Below are positions 4,483 through 44,848 of a stretch of 53,066 nucleotides of DNA, in pieces. Both the position numbers and the translations under genes were made by a program. Numbering within the stretch: position 1 is the first letter of the stretch; each line of letters opens with the position of its first letter. The DNA is from Thioalkalivibrio sp. XN8 (GTDB lineage Bacteria > Pseudomonadota > Gammaproteobacteria > Steroidobacterales > XN24): NCBI RefSeq assembly GCF_011058255.1, contig NZ_JAALFH010000042.1:1-53066 (forward strand). The letters run 5' to 3'. Below the pieces are notes generated by a model that was not told the origin of the DNA, made no database searches, and saw nothing but the letters and a program-made list of their open reading frames with translations.

Positions 4483-7400
4483 CGCTGCTCTCCGCGGCTC
4501 GCTGCTCCTCGCCCGTCAGGGTGCGGATGGCGTTCAGCAGGTCGCTCTCCTGGTAGGGCTTGCCGAGGTAGTGGTCGACGCCGATCTCCATGGCCCGCGC
4601 GCGGTGCTTCTCGCCGACGCGCGAGGTGATCATGATGATCGGGATGTGGCGCAGGCGGGCATCGTTGCGCACGTGGCTGGCCACCTCGTAGCCGTCCATG
4701 CGCGGCATCTCGATGTCCAGCAGCAGGATGTCCGGGGTGTGCTCCTGCAGCAGCGCGACGGCGTCGACGCCGTCCTTCGCCGTGATCACGCGCATGCCGT
4801 TGCGCTCGAGCAGTCTTTCGGTGACGCGGCGCACGGTGATGGAGTCGTCGATCACCATGACGAAGGTGCGGTCGTCCTCCTTGGCCTTCGGCGGCGCCAC
4901 CGGCGGCGGCTCGGGGCCGCGCACGCGGGCGCGGATCAGCGCCGCCACGTCGAGAACCAGCACGATCTTGCCGTCGCCGAGCACGGTCGCGCCGGCCACG
5001 CCGCGGATGCCCGCCAGCTGCGGCCCGAGGGGCTTCACCACGATCTCGCGCGCGCCGAGCATCTCGTCGGTCAGCAGCGCGGTGGGCCGCTCGGCGGCGC
5101 GCACCAGGATGGCCGACACCGTGCCGGCCTCCGGCAGGCCCGCGGCCTCGCCGTCGACCAGCGCGGCGACGTGCTCGAAGTGGTAGTCGTGATCGCCGTA
5201 GCGGAAGGGAATGGCGTGCGGGCCGAAGTAGCGGCCCAGCTCGGCCGCCGGCACCCGCACCACGCCCTCCACCGCCGGCAGCGGCAGCGCGTACCACTCG
5301 TCCCCGGCGCGCATCACCAGCGCCTGGGTGATGGCGCGGGTGAAGGGCAGGCGGATCTCGAAGGTCATGCCCTCGCCGGAGCGGTTGCGCACGTCGAGCG
5401 AGCCGCCCAGCTGGCGCACCTCGCTGGCCACCACGTCGGTGCCGACGCCGCGGCCGGCGCCCTGGCTGAGCTGCCGGGCGGTGCTGAAGCCCGGCCGCAG
5501 GATCATCAGGCAGGCGGCCTCGCTGCTCAGCGTCTCGCTCGGCCCGACCAGGCCCAGGCCCTGGCCCTTGCGCCGGATCGCTTCCAGGTCGAGGCCGGCG
5601 CCGTCGTCGCTCACCTCCACCACCACCTCGGCGCCCTCGCGCCGCACGTCGACGGTGACACGGCCGGTCTCGGGCTTGCCGACGGCGCGCCGCCGCTCCG
5701 GCGCCTCGATGCCGTGGATGATGGCGTTGCGCAGCAGGTGCTCGATCGGCCCCAGCATGCGGTCCATGATCTGGCGGTCCAGCTCCGCGGTGCCGCCGAC
5801 CACCTGCAGCTCGGCCCGCCGGCCGAACTCGGCGGCGATCTGGCGCACCAGGCGCGACAGCCGCTGCGCATGGCGGTTGAAAGGCACCAGCCGGGTGCGC
5901 ATCAGGCCGTCCTGCAGCTCGCTGACGGCGCGTGACTGCTGCACGATCAGGTTCTCGGCCTCGCCGATGCGCTCGCTGATCAGCTGCTGGATGCTGGCCA
6001 CGTCGCTGGCGGTCTCGGCCAGGGCGCGGGACAGCTGCTGGATGGTCGAGTAGCGGTCCAGTTCCAGCGGGTCGAAGTCGCCACGCCGGTCCACGTCGCC
6101 CTGGTGGCGGTGGAGGATCTGGGTCTCGGTCTCGATCTCCATCTTGCGCAACTGGTCGCGCAGGCGGACGAACGTGGCGTTCAGCTCCTCGAGGTTGAAC
6201 TGGACCGAGCCGAGCTGCTCTTCCAGCCGGCTGCGGTAGATGCCCACCTCGCCGGCGTTGTCGAGCAGCTTCTCCAGCAGCGAGGCGTCGACGCGGGCCA
6301 GCTCCTGCCGCTGCATGGCCGCCGCCGGGGGCGCGGCGGGGACGGACGCGGCCGGCGCAGGCACGAACTGGGGTTCGGGTTCGGGCTCGGGCTCGACCAG
6401 CGGCGCGGGCTCGACGGACGGCAGCTCGGCCGGCGCGAAAGCCGCCGTGTCCTCGAGCACTTCCTCGGGCGCTTCCTCGGGCGCTTCCTCGGCCGGCAGC
6501 TCCTCCTCCGCCGGCGCCTCTGGCTCTGCCACCGCTTCCTCGGCGGGCGCTGCTTCCTCGGCGGGCGCTGCTTCCTCGGCGGGCGCCGCTTCCTCGACCG
6601 GTGCTGCTTCCTCGACCGCCCCCGGCGCCTCGAGCTGGCGCACCAGGTCCGCGGGCATCTCGGGCATGCGCCCGTCGGCGGCCGCGTCGCGCATGCCGTG
6701 CAGGGCGTCGATGCAGCGCTGCACGACCTCGACCAGTCCCGGCTCGACCTGGCGCCGGCCCTCGCGCAGGGCCTGGAACAGGTTCTCCAGCTCGTGGCTG
6801 AAATCGCCGATGGTAGTCACGCCGGCGAGCCGCGCGCTGCCCTTGATGGTATGCAGGTAGCGCTGCAGCGCGTGCAGCGGCTCCTGGTCCGAGGGCCGCG
6901 CCCGCCACGCGGCCATGGCGTCCTGGGACTCGTCCAGGATCTCGCCGGCCTCCTCGACGAAGATGCCGAGGATCTCGAAATCGAAATCGGGCTGCTCGAG
7001 GATGGTGTCCACGGCGCCGGCCTGGGCCCGCAGCTCGTAGTCCTGGTGCAGGGCCCGGATCTCTTCCGCCAGCGCCTCGTCGGGCGGCCCGGTCGGTTCG
7101 CCGGCTTCTACCGCCTGCACCACGCGGTCGATCGCCTCCACGGCGCGGCCGAGCAGCGCGATCCCTTCCGGCGGCAGCCCGACGTGGTCGTCGTAGAGCT
7201 GGCGCAGGTAGTCGTTCAGCGGCCGGGCCACCGTCACCACGGCCGCCACGTCGGCCATGTTGGCGCTGCCTGCCAGGGTATGGCAGGCGCGGTGCACGGC
7301 CTCGGTCACGGCAAACGGCGGCGTGCGCAGCGCGCAGTCCTCGATGAAGGCGCGCAGCTCCGCGAGATGCCCGCTGGCCTCGCGGGTGAAGATCTCGCGC

Positions 7401-9835
7401 AACACCGGGTCCATCTCCGGCGTGGGCTCCGGCTCGGGCTCGGGCTCGGGCTCGGGCGCCGCCTCGACCGCCGGCGCTGCGGCCCGTCCGGCGGTGAAGT
7501 CGGCCGCCTGGGCCATCAGTGCCTCGATGTCGGCGGCCGGCGCCTGGCCGCTCTCGATCTGCTCGATCAGCGCCGGGACCTGCGCCACCGCCTCGCCGAG
7601 GAACTGCGCCAGCGCGTCGCTGCGCTCGATGCGGCCCTCGATCAGGGCATTGAGCATCTGCTCGATGCTCCAGGCGAACTCGCCGATGCGCCGCGCCCCC
7701 ACCATGCGGCCGCTGCCCTTGAGGGTATGGAACGCGCGCCGCAGGGTGCCGAGGTCGTCGCGGTCGTTGGTCGCCGACCACTGGGCGTAATGCTGGCGCG
7801 ACAGCGCGTCCAGCTCCTTGGCCTCCTCGATGAACAGCTCGATGAGCTCGGTGTCCGGCTGCTCGCCGCCCTCGAACACCGCCATGCCGGCCGCTGCGGG
7901 CGCGGGCGCGGTCTCTTCCGGCGCGGCCTCCGGCTCCGCCTCGGACGCGGCGATCTCTGGCTCCGCGACCTCCGGTTCCGCTTCCTCCGGTTCCGCTTCC
8001 TCCGGCGCAGCTTCCTCCGGTGCAGCCTCCGGCTCGGGCGGGGCCTCCGGCTCGGGCGGGGCCTCCGGCTCGGGCACGGGCTCCGGCTCGGGCACGGGCT
8101 CCGGGGCCGGCGCCGCGGCGGCGGCCTCGGCCTCGGCCTCGCGCGCCTGCAGCGCCGCCAGGCACTCCTCGGCGTTGTCCAGCATGAATTCCGGCGGCGT
8201 GCGGCCGGCCCGGACGGTCTCCATGAAGTATTCGAGACTGACGATGGCATCGGCCAGGCGGTCCAGGGCGTGGCGCGACAACTCCACGCCGTCCGGCTCC
8301 AGCAGGCGCCGCACGTACCGGGTGACCTGCTCCATTACGCCGACGGCCCGCCGCTGCTCCAGCATCAGCAGCGCCGCCGTCACGCCCTGCAGCAGCCCGG
8401 GCACGGCGTCGGCCAGCTGCGGGTCGATGGGGCCGCTCAGGCGCTCGCTGACCGCGTCCCGCACCCGCGCCATGTTCACCAGGCACTCGCGCAGCAGCGC
8501 TTCCGTGACCTGGCGCATGGCGTCGGCCTGCTCGTCTTCGGCCTCCGTCCGCACGACCGGCTGCGGCTCGTCCAGCACCAGGCCGATCAGCCGCTCGTCG
8601 AGCCGGTCTTCCACCCGCAGCAGGCTGGCGGCCACGGCCAGCAGCTCGTCCTCGGTATCGGCCCGGTCCTTGTGCAGCAGGGCCTTGAGCCGCTCCGCCT
8701 CCCCCCGGACCTGCTCGCGAATCTCGCCCAGCCCGAGGACACCGAGGGTCTCGCCGATCTTGCCCAGCATGCCGCACTGGTGCTCGAGCACCTCGGTGGG
8801 GATGGTGCCGGTGCGGGCATGCAGGTCGAGCGCGTCCTTGACCTTGGCCAGGTCCTCGCGGATGGCGCCGGCGACGGTGCGCATCAGCTGCACGCTCGGC
8901 CCGCCGAGGCTGTCGCGCGCCTGGGCCACGTCCGGCTGCTCGGGCAACAGGTCGCCCAGGCTGAAGGCGTCGCGGATGGCGCTGACGCGGCTGCCCTGGG
9001 TGCCGGCGCGCGCCACGTAAAACAGCAGTGCATTGAGCAGGTCCAGCGGCGGCTCGGCGCCGATGGCTTCCTCGCCCTCGTCGATCATGCGCCGCACCTG
9101 GCGGTCGACCTGGCCGAGCAGCCGCTTCACCGAGGCGCTGGCCGGCAGGCCGCCCTGGCGCAAGGCCTCGACCACGCCGCCGAGCACCCACCACAACTGG
9201 TGCACATTCGGGTCGGTGGAGGCCCGCTCGAGCCGGGCCGCCACGTCCGCGATCACGGCCAGGCTGCTGTCGGGGCGCTCGCCGCGGATCCAGGCCAGCA
9301 GCGCCGCCTGGTAGCGGGGCCGCAGCTGGCGGCCCAGCTTCACCACGTCCTCGCCGGAAGGCTGCAGGGCGACGTCGCCGCCCGACGGCTTGCGATCGCT
9401 GGGCAGGTTCAGCAGCAGCAGGGTGTTCTCGGACAGCAGCGCGGAGCCGCGGGCGGCCCGGAGGTCGTTCAGCAGCGGCAGCAGCACCAGCGGAACGTCG
9501 CGCCCGCCGCTGACCACGCGCTCGAGATAGGGCGGCAGCTGCACCACGGCGCGCGACAGCGCGTCGAGCGCCTCCTGCGGCGGCTGGGCGGTGGTGGCGT
9601 TGCGCCGCAGGTGCTGGGCCAGCTGCTCCATTTCCTCGGCCAGCAGCGAGGCGCCGTAGACCTCGGCGATGCGCAGCGCCCCGTGGGCCTGGTGCAGCAG
9701 GTCGGCGCAGCGCTCCATGGTCTCCGCCTGGTCCGGCTTCTCGACGAACTCCTCCAGCGCCATGCGCACGTCGTTCATCGCGTTGGTGACCTCGGTGGTC
9801 ACCCAGAGCAGCTGTGGCGAGGCGTGGGCGCTCAC
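4475..9835 (-). CDS. chpA: ChpA: multi-Hpt CheA-type hybrid histidine kinase/response regulator of the type IV pilus chemosensory system
   Basis: 1786 residues, shorter than the roughly 2500 of P. aeruginosa ChpA. Order: an N-terminal helical, Hpt/FimL-like region (1-550) without a clear phosphorylatable His; a Pro/Glu/Ala linker (about 565-655); Hpt domains with AFHTLKGSG (His703), CHTLAGSA (His852) and LHTIKGSA (His995); a second acidic Ala/Pro linker (about 1050-1170); dimerisation helices; HATPase with LLRNAIIHG (about 1366) and DDGAGL (about 1408); CheW domain (about 1500-1640); and REC domain with VIDDS and LLLDIEMPRMDG (Asp1707). It would autophosphorylate and pass phosphate to PilG, PilH and its own REC domain. 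The GTG start overlaps the pilJ stop as GTGA. Confidence 0.95.
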   Translation of the reverse strand: MSAHASPQLLWVTTEVTNAMNDVRMALEEFVEKPDQAETMERCADLLHQAHGALRIAEVYGASLLAEEMEQLAQHLRRNATTAQPPQEALDALSRAVVQLPPYLERVVSGGRDVPLVLLPLLNDLRAARGSALLSENTLLLLNLPSDRKPSGGDVALQPSGEDVVKLGRQLRPRYQAALLAWIRGERPDSSLAVIADVAARLERASTDPNVHQLWWVLGGVVEALRQGGLPASASVKRLLGQVDRQVRRMIDEGEEAIGAEPPLDLLNALLFYVARAGTQGSRVSAIRDAFSLGDLLPEQPDVAQARDSLGGPSVQLMRTVAGAIREDLAKVKDALDLHARTGTIPTEVLEHQCGMLGKIGETLGVLGLGEIREQVRGEAERLKALLHKDRADTEDELLAVAASLLRVEDRLDERLIGLVLDEPQPVVRTEAEDEQADAMRQVTEALLRECLVNMARVRDAVSERLSGPIDPQLADAVPGLLQGVTAALLMLEQRRAVGVMEQVTRYVRRLLEPDGVELSRHALDRLADAIVSLEYFMETVRAGRTPPEFMLDNAEECLAALQAREAEAEAAAAAPAPEPVPEPEPVPEPEAPPEPEAPPEPEAAPEEAAPEEAEPEEAEPEVAEPEIAASEAEPEAAPEETAPAPAAAGMAVFEGGEQPDTELIELFIEEAKELDALSRQHYAQWSATNDRDDLGTLRRAFHTLKGSGRMVGARRIGEFAWSIEQMLNALIEGRIERSDALAQFLGEAVAQVPALIEQIESGQAPAADIEALMAQAADFTAGRAAAPAVEAAPEPEPEPEPEPTPEMDPVLREIFTREASGHLAELRAFIEDCALRTPPFAVTEAVHRACHTLAGSANMADVAAVVTVARPLNDYLRQLYDDHVGLPPEGIALLGRAVEAIDRVVQAVEAGEPTGPPDEALAEEIRALHQDYELRAQAGAVDTILEQPDFDFEILGIFVEEAGEILDESQDAMAAWRARPSDQEPLHALQRYLHTIKGSARLAGVTTIGDFSHELENLFQALREGRRQVEPGLVEVVQRCIDALHGMRDAAADGRMPEMPADLVRQLEAPGAVEEAAPVEEAAPAEEAAPAEEAAPAEEAVAEPEAPAEEELPAEEAPEEAPEEVLEDTAAFAPAELPSVEPAPLVEPEPEPEPQFVPAPAASVPAAPPAAAMQRQELARVDASLLEKLLDNAGEVGIYRSRLEEQLGSVQFNLEELNATFVRLRDQLRKMEIETETQILHRHQGDVDRRGDFDPLELDRYSTIQQLSRALAETASDVASIQQLISERIGEAENLIVQQSRAVSELQDGLMRTRLVPFNRHAQRLSRLVRQIAAEFGRRAELQVVGGTAELDRQIMDRMLGPIEHLLRNAIIHGIEAPERRRAVGKPETGRVTVDVRREGAEVVVEVSDDGAGLDLEAIRRKGQGLGLVGPSETLSSEAACLMILRPGFSTARQLSQGAGRGVGTDVVASEVRQLGGSLDVRNRSGEGMTFEIRLPFTRAITQALVMRAGDEWYALPLPAVEGVVRVPAAELGRYFGPHAIPFRYGDHDYHFEHVAALVDGEAAGLPEAGTVSAILVRAAERPTALLTDEMLGAREIVVKPLGPQLAGIRGVAGATVLGDGKIVLVLDVAALIRARVRGPEPPPVAPPKAKEDDRTFVMVIDDSITVRRVTERLLERNGMRVITAKDGVDAVALLQEHTPDILLLDIEMPRMDGYEVASHVRNDARLRHIPIIMITSRVGEKHRARAMEIGVDHYLGKPYQESDLLNAIRTLTGEEQRAAESSDE
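6534..6623 (-). repeat. Five 18-bp tandem coding repeats in the chpA linker
   Basis: Units of gcttcctcggcgggcgct repeat at 6534, 6552 and 6570, and slightly diverged at 6588 and 6606, encoding an Ala-Glu-Glu-Ala-Ala-Pro type hexapeptide. Shorter 12-bp units (gcttcctcgggc) lie just before, near 6460-6490, and another 18-bp series (PEPEAP-type) lies near 8030-8105. Copy number could vary without a frameshift. Confidence 0.8.
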
Positions 9836-11106
9836 TTCGGCGGCGTCTCCGGCAGCCGGAAGCCGGCCACGGAATTACGCAGCTGGGTGGCGAGGTCGGC
9901 CAGCTTGCCGATCGACTGGGAGGTCGCGCCGGTGGCGTCGGCGGTCTGCTCGCTGATCTCGCGCAGCACGTTCATGTTGCTGGTGATGTCGCCGGCCGCC
10001 GTCGCCTGGTCGCGCGCCGAGCGGGAAATGTTCTGCACCAGGGTGGCGATCTGGTTGGACACGCTCTCGATCTCGTCCAGCGCCGCGCCGGCGTTCTCCG
10101 CCAGCAGCGCGCCGCCGACCACGTCGGTCGTGCTGCGCTCCATCGAGGTCACCGCCTCGTTGGTGTCGGACTGGATGGTCTTCACCAGCACCTCGATCTG
10201 GCGGGTCGCATTGGCGGCGCGCTCGGACAGGCGCTGCACCTCGTCCGCCACCACGGCGAAGCCGCGCCCCGACTCGCCAGCCATCGAGGCCTGGATAGAG
10301 GCGTTCAGCGCCAGGATGTTGGTCTGCTCGGCAATGTCGTTGATCAGCTCGACGATGTTGCCGATCTCCTGGCTGCTCTCGCCGAGGCGCTTGATGCGCT
10401 TGGAGGTGTCCTGGATGGTCTCGCGGATGGTGTTCATCCCCTCGATGGTGCGGCGTACCGCGGCGCCGCCCTTGTGGGCCACGTCCACCGAGTGGCGCGC
10501 CACGTCGGCGGCGCGCTCGGCGTCGCCGGAGACGGCCTCGATAGAGGCGGCCATGCGGGCGATGGACTCGGTGGCGTCGCTGGCCTGGCGCAGCTGGGTG
10601 TCGCTGGCTTCCGCCATGTGGGTCGCGGTGGCCTGGGTCTGGCGCGCGGCGGCGTCCACCTTGATGGCGGTCTGGTTGATGGTCTCGACCAGTTCGCGCA
10701 GCGCCTCGATGGCGTAGTTGATGGAGTCGGCGATGGCGCCCGTGATGTCCTCGGTCACCGAGGCCTGCACCGTCAGGTCGCCGTCGGCCAGGTTGCCGAG
10801 CTCGTCCAGCAGCCGCAGGATGGCGGCCTGGTTGCGGTCGTTCTGGCGGGTCTGCTCGGCGGCGCGCCGGCGCAGCTCCTCGCCGCGGAACAGGCCGACC
10901 GTCAGCGCCAGCGACAGCAACAGCGCCCCGGTCGCCAGCCACAGCGGCCAGGCCGCCTCGTCCGCCAGTCCCGACCCGGGCGGCAGGCCGCGCCAGGTCA
11001 ACACGACCGCGGCGAGCACCACCGCGACCAGCACCAGGCCCAGTACCGGCAACAGGGCCATACCCCGTGAATGCTGTCTCATGTTTTTGTCCGTCGTGGA
11101 AACCAT
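9832..11106 (-). CDS. pilJ: PilJ: methyl-accepting chemotaxis-type receptor of the twitching system, with minimal periplasmic loop
   Basis: 424 residues against about 680 for P. aeruginosa PilJ. Transmembrane helices at about 17-38 and 52-73 enclose only some 13 periplasmic residues, so the usual PilJ ligand-binding domains are missing. A HAMP-like region (LGNLADGDLTVQ, about 100-145) precedes the signalling coiled coil with the conserved hairpin tip (INDIAEQTNILALNASIQA) and the ESGRGFAVVADEVQ segment. It signals to ChpA through PilI/ChpC. It lies between pilI and chpA; the methyltransferase gene pilK usually found next is absent. An alternative start is Met9 at 11082. Confidence 0.9.
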   Translation of the reverse strand: MVSTTDKNMRQHSRGMALLPVLGLVLVAVVLAAVVLTWRGLPPGSGLADEAAWPLWLATGALLLSLALTVGLFRGEELRRRAAEQTRQNDRNQAAILRLLDELGNLADGDLTVQASVTEDITGAIADSINYAIEALRELVETINQTAIKVDAAARQTQATATHMAEASDTQLRQASDATESIARMAASIEAVSGDAERAADVARHSVDVAHKGGAAVRRTIEGMNTIRETIQDTSKRIKRLGESSQEIGNIVELINDIAEQTNILALNASIQASMAGESGRGFAVVADEVQRLSERAANATRQIEVLVKTIQSDTNEAVTSMERSTTDVVGGALLAENAGAALDEIESVSNQIATLVQNISRSARDQATAAGDITSNMNVLREISEQTADATGATSQSIGKLADLATQLRNSVAGFRLPETPPK

Positions 11107-14478: not shown

Positions 14479-15461
14479 TGCGCGCCTGGCTCCTGCCGGC
14501 GATCCTGCTGCTGGCGGCCTGCGGGCCGGGGCCGGAGGAAGCCGAGACCCGCCACCGTTTCATGGCCATGGGCACCCTGGTCGACGTCACGCTCTACGGC
14601 GTGCCGGCGGCCGAGGCCGAAGCTGCGGCGCGCGAAGTCGAGACGCTGTTCCACGCGCTGCACCGCGAGTGGCAGCCATACGGGGACGGGGCGCTGGGAC
14701 AGCTCAACCACGCCCTGGGGACTGTCCCGGGGACAGTCCCCACTGACCTGGCGACGCTAATCGCCGAGGCCGAACGGCTGGCAGAGGCCACCGGGGGGCT
14801 GTTCGACCCGCGCCTCGGCGCGCTGGTCAAGCTGTGGGGCTTCGGCTCGGACGAGACCATGCCCGCCGCGCCGCCGCCCCCGGAAGCCATCGCGGCCTGG
14901 CTGGCGACCCGGCCGGTGGAGTACGACCTCGGCGGCTTCGCCAAGGGCGTGGCGGTGGACCGCGCCATCGAGCTGCTGCAGGCGCGCGGCATCGAGCACG
15001 CCATCGTCAACGCCGGCGGCGACCTGCGGGCCATCGGGCGCAAGGGCGAGCGGCGCTGGCGCATCGGCATTCGCGCCCCGCGCGACGCCGGCAAGGTCAT
15101 GGCCGCCCTCGAGGCCGGGGACGACGAGTCCGTGTTCACCTCCGGCGACTACGAACGCTGGTTCGAGTTCGAGGGCCGGCGCTACCACCACATCCTCGAC
15201 CCGCGCACCGGCTACCCGACCGAGGGCCTGGCCTCGGTGACCGTGCTGCACACCGACGCCGCCCTGGCCGACGCCGCCGCCACCGCGCTGGCGGTGGCCG
15301 GGCCGGCGGACTGGCCCGCCACGGCGGCCGCGCTGGGCCTCGAGGCGGTGATGGTGGTGCATGACGACGGCCGCATCGAGCTGACCCCCGCGATGCAACC
15401 GCGGGTGTGGTTCACCAGCGAGGACTACGGCCGCCAGGCCAGGGTCCGGTCCCTGCCGTGA
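14475..15461 (+). CDS. apbE: FAD:protein FMN transferase (ApbE), lipoprotein
   Basis: 328 residues. It begins with a lipoprotein signal (LLPAILLLAACGPG, lipidated Cys at about 16). The family moves FMN from FAD onto Thr of periplasmic or membrane flavoproteins. Typical motifs are MAMGTLVDVTLYG, VEYDLGGFAKGVAVD, NAGGDLRAIG and HHILDPRTGYP. Between HAL and DLATL an insert, GTVPGTVPT, is encoded by a palindromic element at 14716-14742, in frame and in a variable surface region, so the enzyme is probably still active. No obvious flavinylation substrate (RnfG, NqrC or FMN-binding domain) is adjacent. The ATG overlaps the gshB stop. Confidence 0.93.
   Translation: MMRAWLLPAILLLAACGPGPEEAETRHRFMAMGTLVDVTLYGVPAAEAEAAAREVETLFHALHREWQPYGDGALGQLNHALGTVPGTVPTDLATLIAEAERLAEATGGLFDPRLGALVKLWGFGSDETMPAAPPPPEAIAAWLATRPVEYDLGGFAKGVAVDRAIELLQARGIEHAIVNAGGDLRAIGRKGERRWRIGIRAPRDAGKVMAALEAGDDESVFTSGDYERWFEFEGRRYHHILDPRTGYPTEGLASVTVLHTDAALADAAATALAVAGPADWPATAAALGLEAVMVVHDDGRIELTPAMQPRVWFTSEDYGRQARVRSLP
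14716..14742. repeat. Palindromic element, core form, inside apbE
   Basis: 27 bp made of GGGGACTGTCCC followed by GGGGACAGTCCCC with flanking T and A, nearly a perfect palindrome. It encodes LGTVPGTVP in apbE. It shares its core with copies at 27600, 31528 and 44822. Confidence 0.85.
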
Positions 15462-21532: not shown

Positions 21533-22342
21533 CTAGAAGGTGGTCGCCAGCGACAGGCCGGCGCCCCAGTCGGGCGCGCTGTCGCTGAGTCCCGCCCGCA
21601 GGCTCAGGCTGGTCCGCCATGGACCTGCGCGCCAGGAATAGAAGCCGGTCAGCTCCAGCGGGTCGTCATTGGCAAAATATGCCGCCTGGCGATACTCGAG
21701 GAACACGCCGGCCCGATTTGCTGCGGTCACCCGGAACAAGCCGCCCGCCGCCGCCACGATGCCGTCGTCCAGCTCGAACCCGGCCGGATCGCCGCGCACC
21801 GTGTAGCCCAGCGAGGCCAGCCCGGTCCAGCGGTCGAAGAACGCCAGGTAGTCGGCCCGCAAGGTGATGTCGGTCTCGCCGCTGCCCAGTCCCTGGTCCT
21901 CGTCCGCCGTGCCCAGCTTGACCTCGCCGGCCAGGTCGAGCGCTGCGGCGCCGTCGGCCGCCTGCCAGACGTCGCGCAGCGTCACCGCCGCCGTGACGTC
22001 GCCGATCCCGCTTTCCGTCCGGCGGGGCCCGTCCCCGATGACCGGGCCGCCCGGGCCGTCGATGACGGTGCCCGCGGGCGCATCCACGCTCAGCCAGGGC
22101 ACCGTGAGCTGCAGCGAAACCCGCCCCAGCCGAACCCAGCCCGAAAAGCGGGTATACCACTCCTCCACCCGCTCCTCGCCGCCGTATTCGCCGGAAACGA
22201 ACTCGGTGCCGACCGCGATGCCGGCCTCGCGGTCGCCCGCCGCCCCGGCCGAAGCCGGGACGACGAGCGCCAGGAGGACACCCGTAGCGGCGGGCAGCCA
22301 ACCTGCTTCACGCCCTCCGCGGGGGCTGCACCGGGTGTTCAC
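21533..22342 (-). CDS. Outer-membrane beta-barrel protein, transporter/porin-like
   Basis: 269 residues from a GTG start, with a signal peptide (LLALVVPASAGA, cleavage near 33). The mature chain alternates in amphipathic strands (VSLQLTVPWLSVD, DITLRADYLAFFD, TGLASLGYTVRGD, RAGVFLEYRQAAYF) and ends in Phe (GLSLATTF), a typical barrel C-terminus. It resembles small transporter-like barrels of the phenol meta-pathway type. The gene follows the Gln/Asp/Arg-rich secreted protein by five bases, so the two form an operon under the operator at 22921. Confidence 0.78.
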   Translation of the reverse strand: MNTRCSPRGGREAGWLPAATGVLLALVVPASAGAAGDREAGIAVGTEFVSGEYGGEERVEEWYTRFSGWVRLGRVSLQLTVPWLSVDAPAGTVIDGPGGPVIGDGPRRTESGIGDVTAAVTLRDVWQAADGAAALDLAGEVKLGTADEDQGLGSGETDITLRADYLAFFDRWTGLASLGYTVRGDPAGFELDDGIVAAAGGLFRVTAANRAGVFLEYRQAAYFANDDPLELTGFYSWRAGPWRTSLSLRAGLSDSAPDWGAGLSLATTF

Positions 22343-22347
22343 GGGGC

Positions 22348-22848
22348 TTACTGGCCGGTGCCGCCGGGCGGCACGGGCTCCTCGACCTCGACACCGCGTT
22401 CACGGGCCCGCAGCTGCATCTCTTCGCGGTGACGCGCCCGGATCTGCTCACGCTCCTGCTCGGAGCCGGCGGTCCGGATCTGCTCGCGATAGCGGTTGCG
22501 CTCCTGCTCGGTCATGAGTTCGCCGCCGTAGATGGCCTTGCCCATGCCGTCCATCATGTGCTCGCGATCACGGTCCTGGTCGCGGTCCTGGTCCTGGTCA
22601 CGGTCCTGCTGCTGCAGCTGGTCCTTGTCCTGGTCCTGCTGCTGCAGGCGGTCCTGGTCGCGCTGCTGCACCTGCTCGCCTTTCATCATCTGCTCGCGCG
22701 ACTGCATGCGCTCCATCTGCCGTTCCTGGGTCGACTGGCCGGTCCGGGCGGGCTCGCCCTTGCCCTGGCCCTGCTGGGCCAGCACCGGAAGGGCATAGGC
22801 CGCCAGCACGCCGGCCAGCAACGCCGTCATCAGTCTGTTGAGTTTCAT
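22348..22848 (-). CDS. Secreted Gln/Asp/Arg-rich low-complexity protein
   Basis: 166 residues from ATG 22848, with GGAGGACGGGTA upstream; an ATG 18 bases earlier lacks support. A signal peptide (LLAGVLAAYALPVLAQ) is followed by a highly charged, Gln-rich helical region with repeats of QQQDQDKDQ and DRDQDRDQDR around residues 65-95 and Met-rich segments (ERMQSREQMMKGEQ; REHMMDGMGK). The end is E/R helical and then Pro/Gly-rich. Function unknown; the Met/His content might suit metal binding, which is speculative. First gene of a two-gene operon with the barrel protein. Confidence 0.75.
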   Translation of the reverse strand: MKLNRLMTALLAGVLAAYALPVLAQQGQGKGEPARTGQSTQERQMERMQSREQMMKGEQVQQRDQDRLQQQDQDKDQLQQQDRDQDQDRDQDRDREHMMDGMGKAIYGGELMTEQERNRYREQIRTAGSEQEREQIRARHREEMQLRARERGVEVEEPVPPGGTGQ

Positions 22849-22920
22849 TACCCGTCCTCCATGCAAAGGGCCGGAACTCCGGCCTCAACCCAATGCTGGC
22901 GGTGAAGGCGGCGCCGCGAT

Positions 22921-22938
22921 ATGGGGTGAAGACCCCAC
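22921..22938. promoter_or_regulatory. Putative response-regulator binding site (copy 2)
   Basis: ATGGGGTG-AA-GACCCCAC, an inverted repeat with a two-base centre, lying between the response regulator stop (22955) and the Gln/Asp/Arg-rich gene (start 22848). It matches the perfect copy at 25029 in 14 of 16 arm positions. The 7-2-7 style geometry is that of NarL-family sites. Confidence 0.6.
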
Positions 22939-22954
22939 CCGGGCAGCATGCAGC

Positions 22955-23605
22955 TCAGGGCTCGAGCAGCCCCTCGCGGATGGCAAAGCGGGCCAGTTCG
23001 ACGCGATCGTGGATGTCCAGCTTGTCCATCAGGTGGGTGCAGTGCTGCTCCACCGTCTTTGGGCTGATCGCCATGACCTGGGCTATTTCCTTGTGGCTCA
23101 GGCCGCCGGCGAGATAGCGAAGCGCCTCGAGTTCCCTGGGGCTCAGCTGGTCGAGACGTCCCGCGGCCTGGCCGCCCCCAGGCGCCGCGGCCGGCCGCAT
23201 GCGCTCCCGCACCGCCGGCGAGAAGACGGCCCGGCCGCGGCCCGCCAGCCGCAGCGCGTTGACGATGGTGTCCAGGTGCTCGTGTTTCAGCAGGTAGCCG
23301 GCCGCGCCGGCCTCCAGGACCTGGTCGAGGTAGCGGTCGCGCAGGTGGCCGCTGAGGAACACGATCCGGGTCCCCGGGCTTTGTTCGCCCAACTGCCGGG
23401 CCGCCGCAAAGGGCGAGAGCCCGGGCATGTCGATGTCCAGCACCAGGAGGCGGGCGTCGTGCTCGCGTGCAGCCGCCAGTGCCTCGCCGGCGTCCGCAAC
23501 CTCGGCCACCACCTGGAAGTCGAGCTCCTGCTCCAGCCGCAGCGCCAGCATCTCGCGCAGCACGGCATGGTCGTCGGCCAGCACGACGGTGATGCGCTCG
23601 TTCAT
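22955..23605 (-). CDS. NarL/FixJ-family response regulator
   Basis: 216 residues. The receiver domain (1-120) has LADDH at 9-13, phosphoacceptor Asp57 (LLVLDIDMPGLSP) and LLKHE with the conserved Lys. The LuxR-type HTH lies at about 150-212: LSPRELEALRYLAGGLSHKE, then AISPKTVEQHCTHLMDKL. It overlaps the upstream sensor kinase gene by ATGA, so they form one two-component system. Its probable targets are the two matching inverted repeats that flank the pair. Confidence 0.93.
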   Translation of the reverse strand: MNERITVVLADDHAVLREMLALRLEQELDFQVVAEVADAGEALAAAREHDARLLVLDIDMPGLSPFAAARQLGEQSPGTRIVFLSGHLRDRYLDQVLEAGAAGYLLKHEHLDTIVNALRLAGRGRAVFSPAVRERMRPAAAPGGGQAAGRLDQLSPRELEALRYLAGGLSHKEIAQVMAISPKTVEQHCTHLMDKLDIHDRVELARFAIREGLLEP

Positions 23606-25008
23606 GCCTGTATCCGGGGCAACAGGATGCGCACCCGCGTGCCGCCGCCAGGGTTGGAAGTGATCTCCAGCCGACCGCCGTGGCCGCGCGCGAAGCGCTC
23701 GACCGAGCCCAGGCCCAGCCCGGTGCCCTTGCCCGGCGCCTTGGTCGTGAACAGCGGCGTGCCGGCGCGCTGCAGGGTCGCCGCGTCCATGCCGGGGCCA
23801 GTGTCGATCACGGACAGGCAGGCGTAGCCGTCGGCGCCGGGGCCGCAGCCTGGCGGGAGCCCGGAATCACAGCGCACGAAACGCAGCACGCCGCCCTCGG
23901 GCATGGCGTCGCGGGCGTTGAGGGCGAGGTTGACCAGCGCCTGCCGCAGCTGGCTGGCATCGGCCTCCACCCAGACCTCGCCCTCGACCTGGTCGTCGAA
24001 ATCCAGCCTGAGGTTGGCGGGCATGAGCGGCTCCAGCCAGTCCCGCATTTCGCGCAGCAGCGCACCCAGCTCGACCGGCCGGCGACCCGGCTCTTCCCCG
24101 CGGAGAAACAACAGCAGGTTGTCGGTCAGCTCCTCGCCCTGGCGGATCGCTTGTTCGAGTCCCGCCAGGGCACGCTCGCGCTGGGCCTCTTGGCGGGCCA
24201 TCCCGGCGTAGCCGGCCAGCGCGGCCAGCACGTTGTCGAAATCGTGCGCAATGGTGCCGGACAGCTGGCCCAGCAGCTTCATTTTCTCGGTCTCGCGCAG
24301 CTCGTCCTCGGCCTGGCGGCGGGCCTCGATTTCCGCGCGCAGCAACGCCTTCTCCTGGTCCAGCCGCCGCACGAGCAGCAGCCAGGCGGCGATCGCCAGG
24401 GCGAACAGGACGAGAGCGCCGAACAGGGAGGCGACCTCGTTGCGCGTGAGGCCGGCCTCCCGCGACAGCAGCAGGGCGTGATGGCGGGCGTCGAAGGTAT
24501 TGATAGCCCGGCGCAGCGCGGCCAGCCGGGCCGTGTATTCCTCGCCGGTGATGAGCTCGAAGGCCGCGCGCTCGCGCCCATCCTCCTGGAGCGCCAGGGC
24601 ACGCGCCTCGATGAGGCTGAGTTCTTCGAGGGCGCCGAGGGCCTCGGCCAGCGTCTCGTCGCCCGGGGCCTCGGCCGCCGCCAGGTCGACCACCAGCCCA
24701 CGCAGGCGTTGCTCGGAGTCGGCATGGCGAGCCAGCCAGCCCGCGTCGCCGGTGGCGATGGCCAGCTGGGCCGTGCGCTGGATCTCGGCTTCCAGGTCCC
24801 ACAGCGCTTCCTTGATGGCGGCGGCCTCGGCATGGGACGCCTGGAGCTCGCGCAGGACGATAGCCGCCGAGATAGCGTGCCAGGCCAGCCACCCGACCAT
24901 GGCCACGGCCGCGACCATGGCGGCCACCCGCCACGTCCGCGTCCCCAGGTTCCAAGCTCCTTGCTCGGCCACCCGGGACGATCCGCTGTCCCGGCGCAAC
25001 ACTGGCAC
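23602..25008 (-). CDS. Membrane-bound sensor histidine kinase
   Basis: 468 residues from a GTG start. Transmembrane helices at about 27-50 and 192-213 enclose a periplasmic all-helical sensor domain of about 140 residues, resembling CHASE3/4HB types. Then comes a coiled linker (RAEIEARRQAEDELRETEKM), HisKA with GTIAHDFDNVLAALAGYAGM (His255), N box LVNLALNARDAMPEGG, and G boxes DTGPGMD and GKGTGLGLG. It would phosphorylate the co-encoded NarL-type regulator. The sensed signal is unknown. Confidence 0.92.
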   Translation of the reverse strand: MPVLRRDSGSSRVAEQGAWNLGTRTWRVAAMVAAVAMVGWLAWHAISAAIVLRELQASHAEAAAIKEALWDLEAEIQRTAQLAIATGDAGWLARHADSEQRLRGLVVDLAAAEAPGDETLAEALGALEELSLIEARALALQEDGRERAAFELITGEEYTARLAALRRAINTFDARHHALLLSREAGLTRNEVASLFGALVLFALAIAAWLLLVRRLDQEKALLRAEIEARRQAEDELRETEKMKLLGQLSGTIAHDFDNVLAALAGYAGMARQEAQRERALAGLEQAIRQGEELTDNLLLFLRGEEPGRRPVELGALLREMRDWLEPLMPANLRLDFDDQVEGEVWVEADASQLRQALVNLALNARDAMPEGGVLRFVRCDSGLPPGCGPGADGYACLSVIDTGPGMDAATLQRAGTPLFTTKAPGKGTGLGLGSVERFARGHGGRLEITSNPGGGTRVRILLPRIQA

Positions 25009-25028
25009 CGCCTGAGTCTAGCACCGGG

Positions 25029-25046
25029 ATGGGGTGTTCACCCCAT
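25029..25046. promoter_or_regulatory. Putative response-regulator binding site (copy 1, perfect inverted repeat)
   Basis: ATGGGGTG-TT-CACCCCAT, perfect arms of 8 bp around two bases, in the 116-bp divergent gap between the sensor kinase (GTG at 25008) and the glycine-rich secreted protein (ATG at 25125). A TATACA hexamer at 25071-25076 would place the site about 45 bases upstream of a transcription start, suitable for activation of the plus-strand gene. Confidence 0.65.
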
Positions 25047-25124
25047 GGCGACCCCGGTCGTGGAGACCCATATACAGGAGGCAGGGCGAAGCTCGCCCTG
25101 GGCGGAACACGGAGGTAAGCAGTC

Positions 25125-26426
25125 ATGTTGGGGGCAAGAAAAATCCTGTTGGTACTGGTGGCCGGACTGGCCGCCTCGCTGGCGCTCGCCGGCCCTGGTG
25201 GCGGTGGCGGCGGTAAAGGCGGTGGCGGCGGCGGCGGCCCGGGCGGCGGCGGTGGCGGCGACGGCAGCGGCAAGCCCGGCGCCACGGTCGACGACTTCTA
25301 CGGCGACATGGCGTTGGTCGATCGCGACGTCGACGGCGTGCCGATCCTGGCCTGGGGTCTCGGGCCGAAGGACAAGTACATGTGGGTGCGCGCGCCGATC
25401 GTCTTCCCGGACAAGCTGGGCACGACGGAGTGCCCGCTGACGGCGGAGGAACTGGATTTGCTCGCGGCAGATCCATCCTCGGACTACGTGATCCTCGGCA
25501 CCGGCTCGGTCTACGCCGAGCTCGGCATCGACGCCTATCGCATCCCCCTGGTCGACGGCGAGGTCCCCGAGAGCTCCGCGGGCTGCGTCACCGAGGCCGA
25601 CTTCGGCCGCCTGAGCGCGGTCCGGTCGCCGCCCAAGGTGCTGGACGCCGCGCTGCTCGAACTGGTGACCACGCTGAGCACCGAAGCCGCAGTCGTCGGC
25701 CTGGACGAGGCCGGTCGGGTGATGGTGACGTACGAGGAAGACGACTTGACGGTGGTGAAAACCATCGATGCGCCACGCGAGAACCTCGCGGGCTTCGAGC
25801 GCCTGCTGGAGACGGCCGGGCTCTCGCATCCCGAAGTGAACGGGGGCGCCGGGGTGGAAGACCTGCTGCCGGAGCGGCCGGATCGCTCGGGTGACGTGGC
25901 GCTCAGGCGCCTCGACCGCGCCGCGGCGATGTTCGGGGCGGCGGCCGACAAGTTCCATCCCATGGGACTGGACGAACTGATGTACGTGGTCGCCTTGATG
26001 GAGATCGGCGACGACATGACCGCCGAGGCGAAGGGCATCTTCGGCGAGCCGAACATCGGCCAGGAAGAGGGCAAGACGCCGTTCCTCTACTTCGACTTCT
26101 CGACTTTCAGCTACGACCGCGCGGCCACCTATGCCGGCGACGTGTGCTACCTGAAGGTGATGAACGTCAGCGGGACCGATCCCGCCGTCGTGACGGCCGA
26201 AGTGGTCAGCGAGCCGATCCTGCAGGTGGTCTTCCCGGCACTGCCGGAAGGCGCGGCATACCCAGCGGGCGGCTTTTTCGCAGGCGCCGGCGATGGCTAC
26301 AGCTACACGGGCTTCATCGGCAGTAACGCCTGGGGCTTCTCCCGGGCAGTGGACGACGCGCGCGCGGTGATCAACTGGGTGCACGAGAATCCGATGCCGG
26401 TCGAACTGCTTGAGTATTGCCCGTAG
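25125..26426 (+). CDS. Secreted protein with glycine-rich N-terminus, unknown function
   Basis: 433 residues with a good ribosome binding site (ACGGAGGT). The signal peptide (ILLVLVAGLAASLALA) is followed at once by a poly-glycine stretch with single Lys, Pro and Asp residues (about 23-50), then a globular domain of about 380 residues. It contains DFYGDMALVDRDVDGVPIL, Cys residues in TECPLT, SAGCVT, GDVCYL and the terminal EYCP, and aromatic/acidic loops (FLYFDFSTFSYD). I do not recognise the fold. It faces the two-component system across the operator at 25029, so it is a likely regulon member. The hairpin AGGGCGA-AGC-TCGCCCT (25083-25099) lies in its leader. Confidence 0.75.
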   Translation: MLGARKILLVLVAGLAASLALAGPGGGGGGKGGGGGGGPGGGGGGDGSGKPGATVDDFYGDMALVDRDVDGVPILAWGLGPKDKYMWVRAPIVFPDKLGTTECPLTAEELDLLAADPSSDYVILGTGSVYAELGIDAYRIPLVDGEVPESSAGCVTEADFGRLSAVRSPPKVLDAALLELVTTLSTEAAVVGLDEAGRVMVTYEEDDLTVVKTIDAPRENLAGFERLLETAGLSHPEVNGGAGVEDLLPERPDRSGDVALRRLDRAAAMFGAAADKFHPMGLDELMYVVALMEIGDDMTAEAKGIFGEPNIGQEEGKTPFLYFDFSTFSYDRAATYAGDVCYLKVMNVSGTDPAVVTAEVVSEPILQVVFPALPEGAAYPAGGFFAGAGDGYSYTGFIGSNAWGFSRAVDDARAVINWVHENPMPVELLEYCP

Positions 26427-26520: not shown

Positions 26521-27198
26521 ATGAACAGCTTACTCAGGACTTGCGCGATGCTGCTGGCCTGCGCGGCGGCGGCGACGCTCGCGGCGCCGGCCTACGGCCA
26601 GGTGGTGCGCGAAGCCGATGTCCGCTCGCTGGCCGGCGTGCTGGATCCGGTGGCGAACACGGCGGATGACTTCATCTTCGCCAGCAGCGGCCGCGAAGTG
26701 CTGTTCGCCGACCTGGACAGCGAGATCTTCCAGGTGCAGGGACGGCGCGGCGGCGACCATGGCGATGAGCACGAGACCGCCATCGCCGCCAGCAGCTCGG
26801 GCGGCTCCAGCCACGAGGACGGCAGCAGCCACGAGGAAGGCGACGGTTGCGGCGGGGCCGGCGGCCCGGGCGGCCTCTGCCTGCAGGTGATCGACGCTGC
26901 CGGCACCATCATCTGCTGGGCGGACCGGCCGCTGCGGCCGGGCTGGCAGCGCGACCCCGCGCTGGCATGCCCGTTGCCGGACTACGGCAGCCGGCGGCCC
27001 GAGCAGTACACCTTGCGCGTCAGCCTGAAGACCGGCGGTTGCGGGCCGGGCGGCAGCGGCGGCCACGACCACGAGGTCGGGCTGGCGACGGCCAGTGCCC
27101 CGACCGGCGGCGACGCGACGCCCTACGTGCTGAACTGGAGCCTGCGGCGGATCGCCCGGGACGGCCGGCTGGCCAACCAGGCGGTGCGCCAGGACTAG
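26521..27198 (+). CDS. Secreted protein with His/Glu-rich segments, unknown function
   Basis: 225 residues. Signal peptide (LLACAAAATLAAPAYG). The middle is low-complexity with His, Asp and Glu (GGDHGDEHET; SSHEDGSSHEEGDG at about 95-108) and Gly/Cys (CGGAGGPGGLC), and a later GGHDHEVG. Between them are beta-rich segments (LCLQVIDAAGTIICWAD; QYTLRVSLKTGGCG). Metal binding through the His/Glu clusters is plausible but unproven. It ends convergently with the Fur-family gene, the two stop codons sharing CTAG. It follows the Gly-rich secreted gene by 94 bp containing strong hairpins. Confidence 0.72.
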   Translation: MNSLLRTCAMLLACAAAATLAAPAYGQVVREADVRSLAGVLDPVANTADDFIFASSGREVLFADLDSEIFQVQGRRGGDHGDEHETAIAASSSGGSSHEDGSSHEEGDGCGGAGGPGGLCLQVIDAAGTIICWADRPLRPGWQRDPALACPLPDYGSRRPEQYTLRVSLKTGGCGPGGSGGHDHEVGLATASAPTGGDATPYVLNWSLRRIARDGRLANQAVRQD

Positions 27199-27848
27199 GG
27201 CTCGTTGCCCGGGCCCCGCACGCGGAACACCAGCTGGACGCCCTCGAGGCGGACGCCCGCAGGCAGCTCGGGGACGCCGCTGATCCAGGCCTGTTCGGGG
27301 CTCAGGTCCGACAGTTCGCCGGTGTCGACGTTGTAGACATGCGGGTGGGGCGTGGTCACGGTGTCGTAGAAGACCACGCCCCCGCCGAGTTCGAGCACCT
27401 GCAAGAGGTCCCACTCGGCGAATTCCTTCAGGGTGCGGTTGACGGTGTTCCAGGTGTACTTGCGGCCGGTGCGGGCGAGCTCGGCGATCACCTCCTCGGT
27501 GGTGACGTGGCGCGGCTGGCCCAGCAGCAGGCCCGCGACGGCCCGCCGCACCGGGGTCGGGCGCAGGCCGTGCTCCCGCAGTTTCGGGTCCCAGTCCTTG
27601 GGACCGGTCCTGGGGACAGTCCCCAGGACCGGCCCTGCCTCCTTCTCGAGGTCATGGGCGAGCAGGAACAGCCGCCAGGCGCTGGACTTGGGACAGGGGT
27701 AGCGGCCGGTGTCGAGGCCGAGACGCTGGCAAAGCCGGCAGGCGACGTCGCCGGTCCAGTGCCGGCACAGGCCGGAGGGATGCGCCAGGCGCAGCTCGGC
27801 ATCGCCGCCGCTGCGCTGGACTTCGAGTTGCCACTGGTTGGAAGGCAT
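27195..27848 (-). CDS. Fur-superfamily regulator, Irr-like, with Cys-rich N-terminal extension
   Basis: 217 residues, much longer than the usual 140-150. Residues about 89-190 are a Fur domain: REHGLRPTPVRRAVAGLLL, TTEEVIAELARTGRKYTWNT and VNRTLKEFAEWDLLQVLEL. The metal/heme-binding region reads TPHPHVYNVDTGELSDL, as in Irr, and lacks the CxxC zinc site of Fur. The N-terminal 70 residues hold Cys28, Cys37, Cys40 and Cys52 and are unfamiliar. Residues 72-83 (GPVLGTVPRTGP) joining the two parts are encoded by a palindromic element (27600-27635). The gene has its own promoter carrying a Fur-box-like sequence, so iron control is likely. Confidence 0.82.
   Translation of the reverse strand: MPSNQWQLEVQRSGGDAELRLAHPSGLCRHWTGDVACRLCQRLGLDTGRYPCPKSSAWRLFLLAHDLEKEAGPVLGTVPRTGPKDWDPKLREHGLRPTPVRRAVAGLLLGQPRHVTTEEVIAELARTGRKYTWNTVNRTLKEFAEWDLLQVLELGGGVVFYDTVTTPHPHVYNVDTGELSDLSPEQAWISGVPELPAGVRLEGVQLVFRVRGPGNEP
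27600..27635. repeat. Palindromic element, middle-length form, inside the Fur-family gene
   Basis: 36 bp: GGGACCGGTCCT, then GGGGACAGTCCCC, then AGGACCGGCCC. It is an inverted repeat with one mismatch. It lacks one of the two inner units present in the yggS copy. It encodes GPVLGTVPRTGP on the minus strand. Confidence 0.85.
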
Positions 27849-31307: not shown

Positions 31308-32051
31308 ATGACGGACGTCTCAGAACGGCCGGTTGCGGCGCGGCTGGGGGCGGTGCGCGAGCGCATTGCGGCGGCGGCCCGCGCGGCCGGCCGGGACCCG
31401 GCGGAAATCCGGCTGGTCGGGGTCAGCAAGCGCCAGCCGGTGGCCGCTATCCGGGCCGCGATCGACGCGGGCCTGGCGGACCTGGGGGAAAACTTCGTCC
31501 AGGAAGCCGTCGCCAAGATGGATGCGCTGGGACCGGTCCTGGGGACTGTCCCGGGGACAGTCCCCAGGACCGGTCCCAAATGGCATTTCATCGGCGCGCT
31601 CCAGTCCAACAAGACCGCCGTGGCGGCGGCCCGGTTCGATTGGGTCCAGAGCGTGGACCGGCTGAAGCTGGCCGAGCGGCTGTCGCGCCAGCGCCCGGCC
31701 GAGCTGCCGCCCCTGAATGTCTGCCTGCAGGTGCACATCGGGGCCGAGGCCAGCAAGGCGGGCGTGCCCGTGGCCGAGGCGGCCGCGCTGGCGCACCAGG
31801 TGGCCGGGCTGCCGCAACTCCGGCTGCGCGGCCTGATGGCGGTGCCGCCCCCGGAGACCGACCCGGCCCGCCAGCGCGCCTGGTGCCGGCAGCTGGCGGA
31901 GCTCTTTCGCGCACTGCAGCATGACGGCCTGGCCCTCGACACCCTGTCGATGGGCATGTCGGACGACCTCGAGGCCGCCATCGCCGAGGGGGCCACGATG
32001 GTCCGCATCGGCACCGCGGTCTTCGGCCCGCGCCCGGCCGGCCCGATTTGA
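31308..32051 (+). CDS. yggS: YggS/PLPBP family pyridoxal phosphate homeostasis protein
   Basis: 247 residues from ATG 31308; a Met four codons upstream (31296) is the alternative. PLP-binding Lys in LVGVSKRQP, then GENFVQEA, WHFIGALQSNK, LRLRGLMAVPPPE, LSMGMSDDLEAAIAEG and VRIGTAVFG, all diagnostic. The protein buffers PLP and affects amino acid metabolism. Between MDAL and KWHFIG it carries GPVLGTVPGTVPRTGP, encoded by a 51-bp palindromic element, in the loop before the WHFIG strand. It heads the yggS-proC-yggT cluster found next to pilT in many gammaproteobacteria. Confidence 0.95.
   Translation: MTDVSERPVAARLGAVRERIAAAARAAGRDPAEIRLVGVSKRQPVAAIRAAIDAGLADLGENFVQEAVAKMDALGPVLGTVPGTVPRTGPKWHFIGALQSNKTAVAAARFDWVQSVDRLKLAERLSRQRPAELPPLNVCLQVHIGAEASKAGVPVAEAAALAHQVAGLPQLRLRGLMAVPPPETDPARQRAWCRQLAELFRALQHDGLALDTLSMGMSDDLEAAIAEGATMVRIGTAVFGPRPAGPI
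31528..31578. repeat. Palindromic element, longest form, inside yggS
   Basis: 51 bp built of TGGGACCGGTCCT, GGGGACTGTCCC, GGGGACAGTCCCC and AGGACCGGTCCCA, an almost perfect nested palindrome. Its length is a multiple of three, and all six frames are free of stop codons. Confidence 0.88.
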
Positions 32052-44821: not shown

Positions 44822-44848
44822 TGGGGACAGTCCCGGGGACAGTCCCCG
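44822..44848. repeat. Palindromic element, core form, just after nrdJb
   Basis: Two copies of GGGGACAGTCCC in direct order, ending CCGG, directly after the nrdJb stop codon. Here the first unit has A in place of T at its centre, so the copy is a direct rather than an inverted pair. The surrounding 44700-44820 stretch holds no other recognisable feature. Confidence 0.8.

Follow-up and report, generated by a model that had tools for sequence, protein, structure and literature searches.

Palindromes flanking a NarL/FixJ-type two-component system in Thioalkalivibrio sp. XN8 are probable operators of a small exported-protein regulon

This study provides evidence that two palindromes beside a two-component system of Thioalkalivibrio sp. 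XN8 are probably, as judged from the DNA sequence, the operators of the adjacent NarL/FixJ-type regulator, and that they mark a small regulon of exported proteins. This was the central claim of a preliminary description of the 53,066-nucleotide stretch analysed here (the window), and it is supported by the rarity of the sites, their conservation in congeners and their co-occurrence with the regulator. We consider it likely that the reading holds as a whole, namely that the palindromes are operators of this regulator, that its phosphorylated dimer activates three exported-protein operons, and that the kinase operon has a promoter of its own. The features concerned are listed in Table 1.

Table 1. 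Predicted operators, promoter elements and genes of the putative regulon (window positions unless a genome or locus is named).
Feature	Position	Strand	Remarks
Predicted operator 1, Gln-rich/barrel operon	22921..22938	-	ATGGGGTG-AA-GACCCCAC; imperfect 8-2-8 palindrome
Predicted operator 2, kinase/Gly-rich divergent region	25029..25046	+	ATGGGGTG-TT-CACCCCAT; perfect 8-2-8 inverted repeat
Weak -10-like CAGCAT	22893..22898	-	22 bp past operator 1; not strict TANNNT
-10-like CATATA	25069..25074	+	22 bp past operator 2; not strict TANNNT
Conserved -10-like TAGACT, kinase side	25015..25020	-	extended TGC-TAGACT here and in L017
Barrel-like exported protein (outer membrane), second gene behind operator 1	21533..22342	-	
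Exported Gln/Asp/Arg-rich protein, first gene behind operator 1	22348..22848	-	ATG at 22848
NarL/FixJ-type response regulator (receiver and LuxR HTH)	22955..23605	-	Pfam Response_reg 5.7e-21, GerE 1.2e-18
Membrane histidine kinase	23602..25008	-	HATPase_c 4.8e-19; HisKA 5.8e-5, under Pfam's cut-off
Exported Gly-rich protein, target of operator 2	25125..26426	+	
Third target, second Gly-rich exported protein	G000:C33:592424-593464		
ATRGGGYRNNYRCCCYAT places before exported-protein genes	25029; two third-target; Gln-rich G005 and G006; L110 (G006); L119 (G003); L121 (G002)		eight places

The two palindromes were described as having the same arms, which was slightly too strong: the left arms are identical, and the right arm of operator 1 differs from that of operator 2 at two positions, so that two of its eight pairs are broken. 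The distances of about 73 and 79 bp to the start codons stand, the gap measuring 72 bases from operator 1 to the ATG at 22848 and 78 from operator 2 to the ATG at 25125. When the window was scanned with ATGGGGTGNNNACCCCA at up to two mismatches, all four rows came from these two sites, and shuffled controls gave a mean of 0.25 rows, with none of 100 shuffles reaching four. In the whole genome (3,112,415 bases on 67 contigs), zero-mismatch rows were confined to operators 1 and 2, and 11 rows were found with up to two mismatches against 3 for the reversed control pattern. Chance palindromes are very unlikely, given the four window rows against 0.25 in shuffled sequence and the absence of any other zero-mismatch place in the genome.

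The arrangement is conserved in two congeners (L017 in genome G006 and L018 in G005; the window's own genome is G000). All five genes are kept in both, where the Gln-rich/barrel pair runs the other way round from that in the window, and the Gln-rich, barrel, Gly-rich and kinase proteins are 50-68% identical to their congener counterparts (Gln-rich 57% and 50%, barrel-like 51% in each, Gly-rich 68% and 58%). Each congener carries one site before the Gln-rich gene, with 2 mismatches, and one between the kinase and the Gly-rich gene, with 3 mismatches in L017 and 4 in L018; the last is weak when taken alone, since scattered matches occur in other loci at a threshold of 4. The distance from site to start codon is conserved at the Gln-rich gene (72 bases here and 71 in each congener) and variable at the Gly-rich gene (78, 170 and 173). 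These data bear on the possibility that the palindromes arose by chance or form a hairpin or terminator in the RNA. In favour of this, either repeat taken singly is short, and the genome is rich in GC, but the sites are rare in the genome and were kept in place through the inversion, and a scan of 22780-25200 listed no terminator-like site at either palindrome; we therefore regard this explanation as barely credible.

The genome-wide search proposed in the preliminary description, which had asked whether the motif is common at random positions, came out in favour of the regulon. In the window's own genome, ATRGGGYNNNNRCCCYAT with at most one mismatch is found at three sites only, each before an exported-protein gene, and two of the three lie in divergent regions with a kinase or a NUDIX gene opposite. 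A search for ATGGGGTGNNCACCCCAT with up to three mismatches led to the sites G000:C33:593610 and G006:C25:48152, each of which precedes an orthologous Gly-rich exported protein (66% identical); the NUDIX gene stands on the other side of the G000 site. At E 1e-5 this third target was absent from the remaining five genomes of the family, nothing usable for its family was present in Pfam or NCBIfam, and the family is rare, being detected in 3 of 369 class genomes, own included, at E 1e-8. Thus, the regulon is very probably one operon larger than the window shows, with three exported-protein operons in the genome by sequence prediction. At two mismatches, ATRGGGYNNNNRCCCYAT gave 36 forward sites and 55 with the reversed control, which is no excess, and no wider regulon is claimed for this reason. 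The third-target leader also contains a second conserved inverted repeat, AGGGGT-GGATTTT-ACCCCT, just downstream of the operator in both species (L111 and L104), which perhaps forms an RNA hairpin.

Within the family, the regulator is present in six of seven genomes, own included, and at E 1e-40 these six were the only ones to carry it among 196 genomes sampled from the order. With up to one mismatch, ATRGGGYRNNYRCCCYAT occurs at 12 places across the seven family genomes, and eight of these precede exported-protein genes (Table 1). The L119 site precedes a gene for a CCP/MauG di-haem peroxidase (Pfam 9.9e-57), and the L121 site a short open frame whose start looks, by eye, similar to that of the L119 gene. 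Perfect sites at L117 (G001) and L118 (G002) have no -10 hexamer at the right offset, the one-mismatch sites L120 and L122 fall inside long ORFs, and no recognisable operator was present in front of the regulator operons of G001-G003. At zero mismatches, ATRGGGYRNNYRCCCYAT was found in 10 of 192 order genomes, comprising all six that carry the regulator and 4 of the 186 that lack it; as the pattern was drawn from G000, G005 and G006, the fair comparison is three of three against 4 of 186.

The perfect match in those four genomes without the regulator speaks for the alternative that the palindromes are operators of a different transcription factor, lying beside the two-component system by coincidence or through co-transfer. 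We consider this highly unlikely, as the presence of the site tracks the regulator within the family and palindromes with the same core occur before orthologous regulator operons in other phyla. The latter evidence was obtained from a scan of named genomes, covering the best 80 of 308 matching loci, in which many of the top regulator relatives were Phycisphaerae, up to 53% identical. In 78 distant loci, 14 palindromes of the form GGG-N6-CCC with at least four of five flanking pairs were found, and five of the 14 lie within 240 bp before kinase/regulator genes, where 0.32 were expected (P 2e-5); about four of the five are independent, because L061 and L064 carry one site in related records, and four of the five were known before the test. 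Some of the distant sites were likewise already known when the family-wide core was drawn up. Other cores and spacings in the distant loci gave P of at least 0.1, except N8 (3 upstream, P 0.0006), which the L061 and L064 sites also match owing to a fourth G. General palindromes with 9-bp arms and a 2-bp centre were not enriched before the distant kinase/regulator genes (7 against 5.3 expected).

Two of the distant loci resemble the window in their neighbours as well. The locus L052, from a Chromatiales MAG, has a palindrome resembling the operator, flanked by the kinase on one side and, on the other, by a divergently oriented gene homologous to the third target (97% hhalign probability, E 2.5e-11 in that one comparison); TACTTT is found 23 bp from the palindrome on the target side. 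In L081, from an Acidimicrobiia MAG, a Gln/Asp/Arg-rich exported protein precedes the kinase and regulator, and a divergent third-target homologue is present; no palindrome with at least eight of nine pairs was found in the stretch scanned. Outside the genus, a composition filter flagged L052 and L081 only, the distant loci being mostly without such neighbours.

Concerning the regulator, both features of the NarL/FixJ type were found, namely a receiver with the phospho-acceptor Asp and conserved Lys, and a C-terminal LuxR/GerE helix-turn-helix; D12, D57 and K107 are invariant across 12 aligned relatives. No NCBIfam cut-off was reached among the best 25 of 105 rows, which were headed by MctR, NarL and GacA-type models. 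The score against the NCBIfam equivalog for NarL itself, the nitrate regulator, was 120.1 bits, far below the cut-off of 250. The kinase and regulator genes overlap, and alignment with the congeners makes the GTG at 24972 the more likely start of the kinase. In L019-L021, from three related genomes of other genera, the kinase carries a receiver domain at its C-terminus (Pfam E 3e-8 to 2e-11); the corresponding part is present yet unrecognised in the congeners and gone in the window, whose kinase appears from the sequence to have lost this domain.

The preliminary description held that the targets have no known function, and in agreement with this, no usable Pfam family was obtained for the Gln-rich, barrel-like and Gly-rich proteins. 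Export was judged by eye from their N-terminal leaders. The Gln-rich protein has a hydrophobic leader, again by eye, and a conserved C-terminal block. The barrel-like protein, so called from the appearance of its sequence and not from a structure model, had no Pfam or PDB sequence match and nothing usable in NCBIfam, and relatives of it were found in 25 of the 274 class genomes. Several of the relatives L143-L161, among the matches listed, adjoin small secreted low-complexity proteins, and some adjoin other regulators, which suggests a wider pairing of the barrel with low-complexity proteins. NCBIfam likewise yielded no usable family for the Gly-rich protein; its structure model (mean pLDDT 36.4, pTM 0.25) was set aside as too poor for a fold search, and in a PDB profile search the best 60 of 65 rows align around the Gly-rich stretch.

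Two further observations were made elsewhere in the window. A REP-like palindrome, TGGGGACnGTCCCC, is present at 14716-14742, 27611-27625, 31540-31566 and 44822-44848, doubled at three of the four, with 11 rows against 0.18 expected; at the first three positions it lies in frame within long ORFs and encodes GTVP-like peptides. A FUR/Irr-like regulator is encoded at 27195-27848 (-), in which about 90 residues precede the FUR domain as an N-terminal extension.

The mechanism by which the predicted operators work was approached through their spacing to -10 hexamers. In the target direction, such a hexamer tends to start 21-24 bp beyond the site, although both hexamers of the window are weak. In the Gly-rich group, CATATA of the window and CATACA and CATAGA of the congeners all stand at offset 22, despite start-codon distances of 78, 170 and 173. 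Averaged over 11 sites of the family, with orthologues counted, the -10 score is highest at offset 22, a peak that none of 2000 shuffles or rotations reached. An earlier test with strict TANNNT (7 of 14 groups at offsets 21-23, 0 of 5000 shuffles) was rejected as too favourable, since L038 had been picked for that hexamer and the offset had been settled on after inspection of the data and then fixed. With L038 left out, and the best offset of all taken in either direction, six of 13 groups fall at 21-23, which 5 of 3000 shuffles reached. The distant groups by themselves gave four of six, which 19 of 3000 shuffles equalled, and the family groups by themselves gave two of seven, which is not above chance (2638 of 3000). 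When each target contributes one site and offsets are read towards the target, the score test has its peak at 22-24, which 2 of 3000 shuffles equalled; the peak moves to 26-28 when second representatives are used (2 of 3000). For the six distant sites the peak is at 21-23 (55 of 3000), and it is the same for the first representatives together with the distant sites (0 of 3000). If transcription starts 7 bp after the -10 hexamer, the site would be centred near -43.5, an activator position; our confidence in this placement is moderate.

The kinase side behaves differently. The preliminary description had operator 2 facing both the kinase and the Gly-rich gene, and the promoter spacing fits this towards the Gly-rich gene; the kinase has its own conserved -10, and TAGACT stands 8, 15 and 10 bp from the operator in the three species, indicating that the kinase promoter is not locked to it.

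The same regulator might instead act as a repressor, with the bound protein blocking RNA polymerase until the signal arrives. The 25029 site lies over the -35 region of the kinase promoter, NarL itself is able to repress according to the accessible part of PMC4549865, and the spacing evidence that favours activation is moderate. We nevertheless find repression unlikely: the variable kinase-side spacing argues against it, as does a scan of 22780-25200, which turned up no consensus -35/-10 promoter, and the target-side spacing is like the NarL activator positions, which cover -40 to -49 at napF and -38 to -47 at yeaR in the accessible part of the same source.

Activation from a site near -43 is therefore, as read from the spacing, the best candidate mechanism, held less firmly than the operator claim. 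The membrane kinase would phosphorylate the regulator, a dimer of which would sit on the 8-2-8 palindrome, whose centre would lie about 43 bp ahead of the transcription start. Beside a -35 element that is poor or missing, the bound dimer would recruit RNA polymerase and switch on the Gly-rich (25125), the Gln/Asp/Arg-rich and barrel (22848-21533) and the G000:C33:592424-593464 operons. The kinase/regulator operon would use its own promoter, and as the 25029 site covers the -35 region of that promoter, the regulator may at most damp this operon in its own organism. Whereas the conservation and rarity of the sites, their co-occurrence with the regulator and, moderately, the -10 spacing are read from the sequence, we infer the binding, its dependence on phosphorylation and activation rather than repression.

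Among known systems, the NarX-NarL/NarP regulon of E. coli likewise has a regulator with a receiver and a LuxR-type HTH, and inverted repeats with a 2-bp centre. The proposed NarL-operator geometry thus holds for the centre, which the 7-2-7 NarL operators and the 8-2-8 sites here have in common, and not for the order of the G and C runs, which is reversed (GGGGT..ACCCC here, TACCCCT..AGGGGTA in NarL sites); the TACYYMT heptamers reading inward in NarL 7-2-7 sites are absent from the palindromes here. The kinase, of HisKA type and hybrid in relatives, and the three exported-protein operons are also unlike NarX-NarL. An engineered NarL 7-2-7 site is TACCCCTAAAGGGGTA in the accessible part of PMC4549865, and single-site NarL promoters of E. 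coli lie near -42 to -45 at napF, yeaR and an ogt derivative (-44.5) in the accessible parts of PMC4549865 and PMC7419079.

StyS-StyR is likewise a two-component system; its activator site near -40 resembles the position proposed here, and it differs from the present system in having catabolic genes as targets. TodS-TodT is related to StyS-StyR. DevR/DosR belongs to the NarL subfamily, as the regulator here does, but has several cooperative sites per promoter and comes from another organism and regulon. In the DevR/DosR box, G runs stand before C runs, as here. The accessible part of PMC2442086 reports that StyR activates through a high-affinity main site about 40 bp upstream of the start, and that of PMC3029386 that the start-proximal DevR/DosR site often overlaps the -35. 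Among the titles listed from the open-access literature, none described a system such as the present one, and 'GNNLSFP' and two variants matched no paper there.

The preliminary label of an envelope-response module is reasonable, its sole basis being that the targets are exported; any envelope role is likewise one that we infer. A bolder reading is that a cross-phyla two-component module (Gammaproteobacteria, Acidimicrobiia), with regulator relatives in Planctomycetota, governs low-complexity proteins that are exported (Gly-tailed 'GNNLSFP' proteins, Gln/Asp/Arg-rich proteins and the barrel) together with secreted di-haem peroxidases, which would cross-link or oxidatively modify them into a protective extracellular layer. 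This is hinted at by the operator before the CCP/MauG gene of G003, the similar frame in G002 and the gene order of L180, and we regard it as a long shot. In L180 (G230, 6207-10857), a Gly-tailed exported protein of the 'GNNLSFP' type precedes one protein without assigned function, behind which comes a CCP/MauG peroxidase; the contig also carries a multicopper oxidase.

Our findings offer a regulator, an operator and a set of targets that can be put to the test for exported families that have no Pfam or NCBIfam model, and the search pattern allows the regulon to be sought in other genomes. They further point to a regulator and operator that would be retained while the genes under their control change between genera.
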